Positions 30,185-43,997 of a stretch of DNA of 64,000 bases are shown piece after piece. The first letter of the stretch is position 1. Every line of letters starts with the position of its first letter. The position numbers and the translations under genes were made by a program. The notes beneath the pieces are model-generated. The model had not been told where the DNA came from. It searched no databases and was given only the letters and a program-made list of their open reading frames with translations. Source of the stretch: Syntrophaceae bacterium (GTDB lineage: Bacteria > Desulfobacterota > Syntrophia > Syntrophales > PHBD01); the NCBI GenBank assembly GCA_013177825.1, contig JABLXX010000001.1, positions 1 through 64,000 on the forward strand, in the 5' to 3' direction.

Positions 30185-30231
30185 AAAAAAAGGGTGGATG
30201 GAAAAGGAGGGAACCTGAAAACCATCCACCC
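30185..30231 (-). terminator. Terminator hairpin with anti-SD loop
   Basis: Minus strand GGGTGGATGG (30231-30222) pairs perfectly with CCATCCACCC (30201-30192) across a 20-base loop and is followed by seven T (30191-30185). The stem and T-run orient transcription to the minus strand. Confidence 0.65.
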
Positions 30232-30363
30232 CGTATTAAACCGGGAGGTAACCGGTAACCCACACCTCCCGGATTCTCTTTAGGGGGTCGGTGGGTGGAA
30301 AGGAGGGAACAGAAACCACCCACCGATTAAAAACAATCATCACACTCGGCAGTCGCGTCAAAA

Positions 30364-30579
30364 CTACTCTGGAAGAAAAAAGCGGATACTCTGTTCTTTT
30401 GGAATATCTCCTTTCTTTTCTTCGTCCTGTTCTTTCTTTGCCCGGCTGTCACTCCCGCCTTCTGCAGACAGGAAAAATTCTTCTTCCGTTAATCCTTGAC
30501 CGTTACCCTGAATGACTGAAGACACCGAATCAATGTTCGAACTCTTGCGCTTTCCTTTGTCCGTTGAGCTCTTGTACAT
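30364..30579 (-). CDS. Possible 71-residue hydrophilic protein
   Basis: An open frame from ATG 30579 to TAG 30364 lies inside the sigma-54 transcript. The peptide is highly charged (MYKSSTDKGKRKSSN start, KKEQDEEKKGD near the end) with no hydrophobic segment. No Shine-Dalgarno is visible before the ATG. The base composition is AT-richer than in the neighbouring genes, so coding status is doubtful. The frame is open for about 20 codons further upstream, but without a normal start. If real it would be a small sigma-54-controlled protein, and the hairpins would be its 3' untranslated region. Confidence 0.3.
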   Translation of the reverse strand: MYKSSTDKGKRKSSNIDSVSSVIQGNGQGLTEEEFFLSAEGGSDSRAKKEQDEEKKGDIPKEQSIRFFLPE

Positions 30580-30645
30580 TCGTTGCCAGATTCTTGTTTT
30601 CTTATATCTCCCAATGGTGCTCGGGTTTGTTTGTTTATGTGCTTC

Positions 30646-30660
30646 GCAATATCAATGCCA
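30646..30660 (-). promoter_or_regulatory. Sigma-54 (-24/-12) promoter
   Basis: Minus strand TGGCATTGATATTGC: GG at 30659-30658, ten bases, GC at 30647-30646, with the TGGCA and TTGC blocks intact. Transcription would start near 30635 and run away from the activator gene. Confidence 0.72.
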
Positions 30661-30801
30661 GAAGGTCGATGGAGAGAAAGAAAAAGAACGAAATATGTGT
30701 ATCTATCTGAATATATAAGATAAATAGCCGCGTGTAGAGTTGCTGTTTTGCTGCGGAATGACAGAGCGGAGGCAGGAGATAGAGAATTCTGAAACTCAAT
30801 C

Positions 30802-30818
30802 TGTGCGAATGGCGCACA
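30802..30818. promoter_or_regulatory. Activator-binding palindrome 1
   Basis: TGTGCG-AATGG-CGCACA, a perfect 6-5-6 palindrome. Its centre lies about 175 bases upstream of the start predicted from the sigma-54 promoter at 30646-30660. It shares both arms and spacing with the site at 30890-30906. Confidence 0.6.
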
Positions 30819-30889
30819 CGGTTTTCGTCATGAGTGTATAACTTATTGATATAATGGTTGAATATGATGTAGTGCGCAATGTGAACGCG

Positions 30890-30906
30890 TGTGCGAGAAT
30901 CGCACA
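30890..30906. promoter_or_regulatory. Activator-binding palindrome 2
   Basis: TGTGCG-AGAAT-CGCACA, the same palindrome with a different spacer, directly after the stop codon of the sigma-54 activator gene at 30908. Centre-to-centre distance to the first copy is 88 bases, close to eight helical turns. Confidence 0.6.
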
Positions 30907-33077: not shown

Positions 33078-33593
33078 TCACGTCTGTTTCAGAATAATGC
33101 TCAATGCCGTTGTCAGCTTGATGGTATCCTCGTCGGCCTTCCGCAGACGGGTGCTGACAATCCTGGCCAGATTCAGGGCCACGCGATAACCCAGGGCGGT
33201 ATCCTCCTCGGCGATCCGGAGAAAATCATCCTTTCGGATTTCATACAGCACGCAGTCCGTCAAGGCCGTGATGGTGGCCGTTCGCTTCTGCTTTTCCAGG
33301 AGGGCGATTTCACCGAACACAGCATGGTCCTGGGCGCCCAGGCGAGTGAAAACCTTGCTTTTGTCCGCCGCATCATCTTCTTCCATCCCCGGGAGAACGA
33401 GGCTTTTTACCACTTCCACGGTACCGTCGAGAATGATGTAGAGCGTGTCGCCTTCTTCGCCTTCCCGCATGATGATCTCCCCGGCACGGAATGTTACACG
33501 GCGGGAGATGTCAATGAGTTCGCGAATTTGTTCCGCCTTCAGATCACGGAAGAGTTCCGGTTCCTGCAGGAAGGAAACGCTGTCTTCATTCAT
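33078..33593 (-). CDS. Cyclic-nucleotide-binding domain protein
   Basis: A 171-residue stand-alone cNMP/Crp-type sensor. The beta-roll shows GEIIMREGEEGDTLYIILDG and the phosphate-binding cassette FGEIALLEKQKRTAT, with the arginine that would contact the cyclic phosphate. A short acidic insert (GMEEDDAADKSK) is in the beta-roll. There is no DNA-binding domain; about 40 helical residues follow. It is encoded between a potassium channel and the sigma-54 activator, 35 and 37 bases away, so it may give ligand control to one of them. Confidence 0.85.
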   Translation of the reverse strand: MNEDSVSFLQEPELFRDLKAEQIRELIDISRRVTFRAGEIIMREGEEGDTLYIILDGTVEVVKSLVLPGMEEDDAADKSKVFTRLGAQDHAVFGEIALLEKQKRTATITALTDCVLYEIRKDDFLRIAEEDTALGYRVALNLARIVSTRLRKADEDTIKLTTALSIILKQT

Positions 33594-33628
33594 GGCCGGC
33601 CTTTCCTTGTCGCTTTACGGTCCGGGAG

Positions 33629-34795
33629 TCAACCGGAGCGTGGATTTTTCCGGGACAGAACGATGGCATGGTCGTCCTGCGAAATCACATAGCCGCCGTC
33701 GGGATTGATGGACAGCTTGGCCTCGTCCTGCTCGTAGTAGAAGTCTTTCTTGGATTCGCGGATCTTCTCCCGGATAAAGGTATCGATGACAGAGGTGTTG
33801 TCCGACAGCAGGTCCTCCAGCTTCATGGCGGCCTTGTCCCTGATGATGCCCAGGAGAATGGCGTGATGCTGATCCCGGAAATGATCTGCCAGTTCGTTGT
33901 ATGTTTTCCCGACGAAGGCCCGGGGGATATCGACGCGCCAGAGTTTGTTCGTGTCGCCCAGGGCCATCAGGTTCGAAAAGATCCTGGGGAGCCCCGGCGA
34001 GTCGACGGCGCTGGCCATCAGCGCACCGATGTGCTCACCCCGGACAATGATCTCGTCGACATGGGCACGTTTCAGGCTGGTCTTGTTCTCGCTGTTGAGA
34101 AGCTCGGCGATGATCCGGATCTGGGGGTTGATGGAGCGGATCGTCAGGGCCGTCAACGTCGTCCGCTCGTCCACGCGATCCCGGGGGTGGCCTCCCGACA
34201 GGTCCGCCATAAGGATCGCAAAGGCGGCCCGGGAAATATTGGCCCGCATCAGAACCTCTTCCTGGACGAAGTTGCCCCGGATGAACTTCAGGTCATGGTA
34301 TTTCACGCGCAGGGGGTCGAGCTCGTCCGGGGAAAGCTCATTGATAAGAACGAGCGGTTTCTCACCCGCAAGACCCTGGCGGATCAGGCCGTTCAACAAC
34401 TCTTCCGTGTGCTGGTTCCATCCGCACAAGACAATATGGTCCTTTTCCTTGAACGTGTCCAACCCCTTTCCCTCCTTGATCTTCTTCTCAACAAACAGGG
34501 ACGCGATGGTGGCCGTGAACAGGGACATCAGGCCCACCCCTGACAGGATGACGAGGATTCCTACCAGGCGGCCCCCGACGGAGACGGGATACTTGTCGCC
34601 GTATCCGACGGTACCCATCGTGACAATGGACCACCAGATCGCGTCCCAGACCGACGTGATATTCGCTTCCTGACGGAGGTGCTCGAAGTAGTGGACCGCC
34701 AGGGCGCTCAAGACGACGACGCTCAGGGTGAGCAGGGCGACCTGGATGGCAGGGAGGCTATACAGGCGGTTGAGTTTCTTGCCCAGCGTTTTCAT
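33629..34795 (-). CDS. Potassium channel protein with TrkA-N/RCK domain
   Basis: A 388-residue protein. Two transmembrane helices (about 18-37 and 72-96) flank a pore with the selectivity filter TVGYGD (62-67). A Rossmann-type RCK/TrkA-N domain follows (HIVLCGWNQHTEELL; GNFVQEEVLMRANI). The C-terminus ends in a TrkA-C-like part (GGYVISQDDHAIVL). The layout matches two-TM bacterial K+ channels such as MthK or GsuK. In the same unit lies a cyclic-nucleotide-binding protein, which may be a regulator. Confidence 0.9.
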   Translation of the reverse strand: MKTLGKKLNRLYSLPAIQVALLTLSVVVLSALAVHYFEHLRQEANITSVWDAIWWSIVTMGTVGYGDKYPVSVGGRLVGILVILSGVGLMSLFTATIASLFVEKKIKEGKGLDTFKEKDHIVLCGWNQHTEELLNGLIRQGLAGEKPLVLINELSPDELDPLRVKYHDLKFIRGNFVQEEVLMRANISRAAFAILMADLSGGHPRDRVDERTTLTALTIRSINPQIRIIAELLNSENKTSLKRAHVDEIIVRGEHIGALMASAVDSPGLPRIFSNLMALGDTNKLWRVDIPRAFVGKTYNELADHFRDQHHAILLGIIRDKAAMKLEDLLSDNTSVIDTFIREKIRESKKDFYYEQDEAKLSINPDGGYVISQDDHAIVLSRKNPRSG

Positions 34796-43981: not shown

Positions 43982-43997
43982 TGGCATGACGGTTGCA
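43982..43997 (+). promoter_or_regulatory. Sigma-54 (-24/-12) promoter of exported-protein genes
   Basis: TGGCATGACGGTTGCA: GG at 43983-43984, ten bases, GC at 43995-43996, with both consensus blocks. The first gene starts 37 bases later. Confidence 0.8.

Follow-up and report, generated by a model that had tools for sequence, protein, structure and literature searches.

A conserved sigma-54 locus of Syntrophales with an activator gene, a small FF-motif reading frame and a structured RNA carrying anti-Shine-Dalgarno-like loops

The window considered here, i.e. the whole stretch of 64,000 nucleotides of a Syntrophaceae genome, carries on its minus strand a compact and conserved arrangement in which a regulator, its putative operator, a promoter, a small protein and an RNA are found within 2.9 kb (Table 1). 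Pfam assigns to the first gene, from N- to C-terminus, a GAF region, a Sigma54_activat AAA+ domain, an AAA lid and a Fis-type helix-turn-helix. The combination of a sigma-54 AAA+ domain with a Fis-type helix-turn-helix is that of the NtrC/NifA-type enhancer-binding proteins, and the nearest relatives of solved structure are NtrC1, ZraR and NifA, with the match lying mainly in the AAA+ part. A preliminary description of this DNA had placed a GAF-AAA+-Fis activator gene, twin palindromes, a -24/-12 promoter and three hairpins with a T7 run in this order, and each of these elements is present where it was proposed, the gene being borne out by its domains, the palindromes by exact matches, and the remainder by the conservation and covariation given below.

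Table 1 Coordinates of the features at the locus, and examples of a second RNA element in relatives
Feature	Position	Strand	Basis
Sigma-54 activator (bacterial enhancer-binding protein), 710 aa	30908-33040	-	ORF + Pfam
Cyclic-nucleotide-binding domain protein, upstream neighbour of the activator (context only)	33078-33593	-	Pfam PF00027
Putative activator-binding palindrome, site A, TGTGCG-N5-CGCACA	30890-30906	.	exact match
Putative activator-binding palindrome, site C, TGTGCG-N5-CGCACA	30802-30818	.	exact match
Sigma-54 -24/-12 promoter TGGCATTGATATTGCG	30660->30645	-	consensus match + conservation
Small ORF, 71 aa, two FF motifs (EEEFFLS, QSIRFFLPE)	30364-30579	-	ORF list + alignment
Hairpin H1, loop with UUCCCUCCUUU (30299-30309), then CCCCC	30288-30326	-	covariation
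Hairpin H2 (in relatives CUGAAAGGG...CCCUUUCAG)	30241-30272	-	covariation
Hairpin H3, terminator stem, same loop motif UUCCCUCCUUUU (30202-30213)	30192-30231	-	covariation
T7 run, intrinsic terminator end	30185-30191	-	sequence
Second RNA element, example in a relative	L006:3924-4002	+	
Second RNA element, example in a relative	L019:1134-1211	-	

Upstream of the activator gene, at 33078-34795 on the minus strand, the cyclic-nucleotide-binding gene is accompanied by a gene for a TrkA/Ktr-type channel, and in 12 of 28 loci this pair adjoins the activator. It is a matter of speculation that the GAF region and these neighbours point to an energy or ion signal. In one relative (G035) a stretch of about 1.3 kb that holds a transposase-like ORF has been inserted into the activator gene (L284; G035:C1:1966500-1972500); this genome still has an RNA locus at another place (L057), which may possibly be silent.

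Sites A and C are 88 bp apart, and site C precedes the promoter by about 158 bp. The 64-kb window holds no exact TGTGCG-N5-CGCACA besides these two. Between the activator stop codon and the hairpins, a palindrome with at least 10/12 matching bases occurs in 34 of 35 related loci, as compared to 1% of shuffled sequences. Relatives usually carry two or three sites in a recurrent array A-(20)-B-(68)-C (distances in bp), of which the window has the outer two; as judged by eye, any copy in the middle must be degenerate. Position and co-occurrence suggest that the palindromes are bound by the activator. The only exact copies of the palindrome in the genome outside the window are two on contigs 6 and 11 (near 1501-1517 in L155 and L156), where identical sequences TGTGCGCCCTTCGCACA lie in repeats that resemble each other (GTCGGACAGG...CTGTCGCCGATTCT or a close variant) and that probably represent the ends of mobile elements; on account of this shared repeat they were rejected as members of a regulon.

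When one mismatch is allowed, a scan of the window for -24/-12 elements gives 3 matches against 1.95 expected, and within the window such a match by itself is not significant. The significance of the promoter follows from its conservation across related loci, since an element with at least 10/11 consensus bases is present in 33 of the 35, against 1.9% of shuffles. Transcription is predicted to start near 30634. With a -24/-12 element of the GG-N10-GC type and activator sites upstream, the locus has the make-up of a sigma-54 unit. A second -24/-12 element with full consensus, TGGCATGACGGTTGCA, is present elsewhere in the window (43982-43997, plus strand).

The distribution of the locus was determined in 155 genomes of the order Syntrophales, using a covariance model (R1) for the RNA and a threshold of E<=1e-150 for activator orthologues. 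Of 60 relatives searched at first, 42 had the activator and 42 had RNA-like DNA, the two mostly adjoining. In the full set, 87 genomes have the RNA and 72 a strong activator orthologue, and 71 of the latter also have the RNA; in the sole exception (G046) the contig ends 688 nt past the activator gene. This co-occurrence has a Fisher p of 7e-27, uncorrected for shared ancestry. In 63 of the 72 activator genomes, representing 17 families, the same strand carries the RNA 244-1872 nt downstream of the activator, and the order palindromes-promoter-hairpins, which the preliminary description had suggested looking for in relatives, is indeed kept there. The adjacent layout is missing from 9 activator genomes, and contig breaks explain only some of these cases. 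The RNA also occurs in 16 of the 83 genomes that have no strong activator match. Among 395 genomes of the phylum, strong matches to the RNA model were obtained only within Syntrophales; five matches outside the order (E 0.001-0.008) are at chance level. A pattern scan of IMG/VR gave no matches, which means that the RNA is not phage-borne in that collection.

The genome under study has a single RNA copy, whereas up to six matches are found in relatives; a second candidate in the own genome (C1:1101442, E 0.005) was rejected, as it lacks the H1/H3 loop motif and appears coding-like. Many of the unlinked copies in relatives possess their own -24/-12 element and palindromes, which suggests control by the same activator. 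In relatives the designation of the module as self-contained does not hold strictly, since their unlinked copies share promoter and sites. We are highly confident that palindromes, promoter, ORF and hairpins form one regulated unit.

The three-hairpin region (30192-30326) folds with a z-score of -4.6. In 26 aligned RNAs, 95.3% of the cells that should pair do so, and 15 of the 28 pairs have changed on both sides (H1 5/11, H2 6/7, H3 4/10). None of 500 shuffles reached the observed pairing and covariation, and versions of the structure slid along the alignment are only 37-58% paired. The minus strand can be identified as the RNA because G·U cells far outnumber A·C cells (H1 13:1, H2 27:3, H3 11:0; total 51:4). 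The T-run is retained in most relatives. In the window the loops of H1 and H3 both carry UUCCCUCCUUU; in several families H3 is without the anti-Shine-Dalgarno (anti-SD) motif, and some genomes have an anti-SD loop in H1 only. In a comparison with a genome of the same genus, 50-56% of the positions are identical upstream of the promoter and 68% across the promoter itself; the value rises to 78-98% between start site and terminator and drops to 62% beyond the terminator. Conservation confined in this way fits a transcript with the ends that had been proposed earlier. The 350 nt from promoter to hairpins are no bare leader, as they hold the small ORF. The coupling of activator and RNA recurs across the order, while the predicted product is a dual transcript for a small protein and an RNA rather than a bare small RNA.

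At the Rfam gathering score the window gave no match, including to CrcZ/CrcY, and at a relaxed E-value the locus gave unrelated weak matches only; the models of alphaproteobacterial anti-SD families did not match either. The RNA unit therefore appears to be undescribed, in the sense that it is not in Rfam and was not found in the open-licence literature, in agreement with the earlier suggestion that it is unrelated to CrcZ and possibly new.

The predicted small protein is acidic (pI 5.2). Comparable ORFs of relatives encode 62-79 aa and are very divergent except for FF motifs of the approximate form [DE]FF[LIV]S and, close to the C-terminus, FF[LV][PS][DE]; in an alignment of 17 sequences, the start Met, F35F36 and F67F68 are the only invariant residues. 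The same small ORF also accompanies unlinked RNA copies. A Shine-Dalgarno sequence precedes it neither in the window nor in many relatives, and a Pfam search with the window ORF (E<=1) gave no match, DUF1127 included. AlphaFold gives a mean pLDDT of 60 and a pTM of 0.18; the protein is predicted to be disordered, apart from two short helices that coincide with the FF motifs. Relative to the genus-mate, the changes in the ORF by codon position number 7, 5 and 14, and this lead of the third position is by itself weak evidence of coding. In one relative a universal stress protein gene (L069:3093-3617, plus strand) follows the sigma-54 promoter and comes ahead of the small FF ORF and its hairpins.

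The anti-SD tail of 16S rRNA reads CCUCCUUU and then AUCAC. The loop sequence UUCCCUCCUUU has CCUCCUUU in common with this tail, followed by UUCCC rather than AUCAC. With four leaders containing AAAGGAGGGA, calculated loop duplexes are at -16.5 to -26 kcal/mol versus -13 to -17 kcal/mol for the 16S tail; with three AAAGGAGGU leaders, the loops are predicted to bind more weakly than the tail. In the own genome, 18 ATG codons lie 2-9 nt after AAAGGAGGGA, as compared to one in the reversed control. For 17 of these 18 genes, with products named by eye from their sequences, acyl-CoA ligases and CoA-transferases make up 7/17, against 1/30 of the genes with AAAGGAGGU (p 0.002, the grouping being post hoc). 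In three other families the same classes account for 5/18 of the AAAGGAGGGA genes, and one CoA-transferase recurs with AAAGGAGGGA in three families (L222, L274, L279). If all acyl-CoA genes are counted, the figures become 7/17 versus 5/30 (p 0.09), with p 0.47 in the replicate, and we regard the enrichment as a lead to possible targets. Going by complementarity and duplex energies, the RNA may work like known anti-SD RNAs, and we consider the chances that its loops use such a mechanism to be about even.

A mechanism that combines these features can be envisaged. The GAF-type activator would sense a signal, bind the TGTGCG-N5-CGCACA sites just 3' of its own gene and fire the -24/-12 promoter located about 150-250 bp further on. 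The product would be a transcript of about 450 nt that comprises the message for the 71-aa disordered FF protein and the 3' module H1-H2-H3. The loops of H1 and H3, in the whole or a processed RNA, would then outcompete the ribosome for ribosome-binding sites of the AAAGGAGGGA type, by which the paired mRNAs, perhaps those of acyl-CoA ligases and CoA-transferases, would be silenced, with the small FF protein acting in parallel. One signal would in this way probably lower the translation of chosen genes. We lean, with some reserve, towards this reading, in which a dedicated activator drives a dual transcript and the RNA loops cover AAAGGAGGGA-type sites.

The C-rich loops and the CCCCC stretches could instead act as a decoy that captures an RNA-binding protein or a ribosome-associated factor recognizing the 16S 3' end. 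CrcZ is such a decoy for Hfq/Crc. The genetic layout is shared with cbrB-crcZ (PMC6292655), and both the repetition of identical loops and the several copies per genome in relatives would suit titration; a candidate protein was not found, however, and the loop extends the pairing register specifically with AAAGGAGGGA sites, which would be needless for a decoy, so that we consider this explanation unlikely. Somewhat more improbable is that the unit is chiefly an mRNA for the FF protein, with the hairpins serving as an elaborate terminator or 3' stabilizer that has no partner in trans. H3 is a terminator, and the window and about two thirds of the linked relatives examined have an ORF downstream of the promoter and ahead of the hairpins. 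About a third of the loci, however, are without the small ORF and retain the RNA, with H1 70-190 nt from the promoter (L015, L023-25, L027, L029, L073 and L074), which makes the RNA the less variable of the two. Moreover, H1 has no T-run, it is more similar to its counterpart in the genus-mate than the ORF is (98% versus 87% identity), and the loop letters are conserved like the stems, with CUCC in the H1 loop invariant in 26 sequences.

An RNA from the opposite strand, of which the GGA loops (AAAGGAGGGAA) would make a CsrA sponge in the cydAB 3' UTR, is very improbable: the plus-strand hairpin loops contain AGGA and do resemble CsrA sites, but the wobble counts, on which this explanation was rejected, favour the minus strand, promoter and T-run both lie on that strand, and in several relatives another gene, apparently ychF as judged by eye, lies beyond the RNA. 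A chance adjacency of palindromes, promoter-like site and hairpins that have nothing to do with each other has practically no probability left, for even though the promoter match in a single window is not above chance, the order recurs with conserved spacing in at least 17 families.

A second RNA element of about 80 nt, GAGACCUCU...ACCUUUA...GAAAGGU...AGAGGUCUC (GAGACC...GGTCTC in the DNA), is found in 21 of the 155 Syntrophales genomes, nearly always just 3' of such a sigma-54 promoter, and is absent from the genus of the window. In the L019 example a T-run follows directly. Of its cells 87.8% are paired, and 14 cells have changed on both sides (0/500 shuffles); other structural measures are within the range of shuffles, and the structural support is moderate. 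The element has no match in Rfam. Two further matches (G044:C104:3251-3335 and G046:C59:5120-5210, both on the minus strand) are located away from any H1-H3 RNA.

A wider reading, which is possible but which we hold tentatively, is that an order-wide and undescribed regulon exists, in which a dedicated activator controls transcripts for FF proteins and anti-SD RNAs, and in which discrimination between AAAGGAGGGA and AAAGGAGGU sets a translational programme. If this is true, the unit would, for example, shut down acyl-CoA catabolism in syntrophic bacteria, and the bases that flank the Shine-Dalgarno core are predicted to choose which mRNAs are hit. Regulatory RNAs of syntrophic bacteria seem to be almost unstudied; a search of the open-licence literature found no report on them.

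The Qrr RNAs of vibrios act by Hfq-dependent seed pairing and are not known to have anti-SD loops. They are reported to be small RNAs turned on by sigma-54 and activators (PMC10162802), a switch resembling that of the window, with differences in RNA, activator class and host. A closer parallel in layout, already drawn in the preliminary description, is provided by cbrB-crcZ of Pseudomonas and Azotobacter, where a sigma-54 activator gene is directly followed by an RpoN-dependent regulatory RNA and crcY is under the same control (PMC6292655). However, CbrB is a two-component response regulator, whereas the window activator has a GAF region and no receiver domain; the window RNA is not matched by the CrcZ/CrcY covariance model, has anti-SD-like loops and an encoded small protein, and occurs in another phylum.

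The CIN1 locus of Rhodobacter (ccaF1-CcsR, the 'cuckoo' RNAs) has a gene for a 71-aa protein that is co-transcribed with four sRNAs from an alternative-sigma promoter and has one 3' terminator (PMC10253847). The window shares with it a 71-aa protein and hairpin RNAs in one putative alternative-sigma unit, but CcaF1 is a DUF1127 RNA-binding protein and the promoter is of the RpoHI/RpoHII type, whereas the window protein is acidic, predicted to be disordered and no DUF1127 protein. NfeR1 (alpha-r14) of rhizobia has three hairpins with an ultraconserved unpaired anti-SD motif and silences mRNAs at the ribosome-binding site, the pairing of its anti-SD loop having been shown experimentally; it is activated by LsrB, repressed by NtrC and has no sigma-54 signature (PMC10746234). 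The window RNA shares three hairpins and an anti-SD motif in unpaired loops, but its UUCCCUCCUUU and the NfeR1 motif CCUCCUCCC have the same CCUCC core with other flanks, only two of its three hairpins carry the motif, and stems are conserved in Syntrophales and highly divergent in sequence in NfeR1. Since these defining features are lacking, the unit is not assigned to the cbrB-crcZ, NfeR1 or CIN1 class. Its mode of action is nevertheless likely closer to that of NfeR1 and CcsR than to that of CrcZ. This suggests that the combination of an anti-SD loop RNA with a small protein arose independently outside the Alphaproteobacteria, with a different sigma factor, and, if the regulon exists as envisaged, it would represent a case of convergence with ccaF1-CcsR and NfeR1 of the Alphaproteobacteria.
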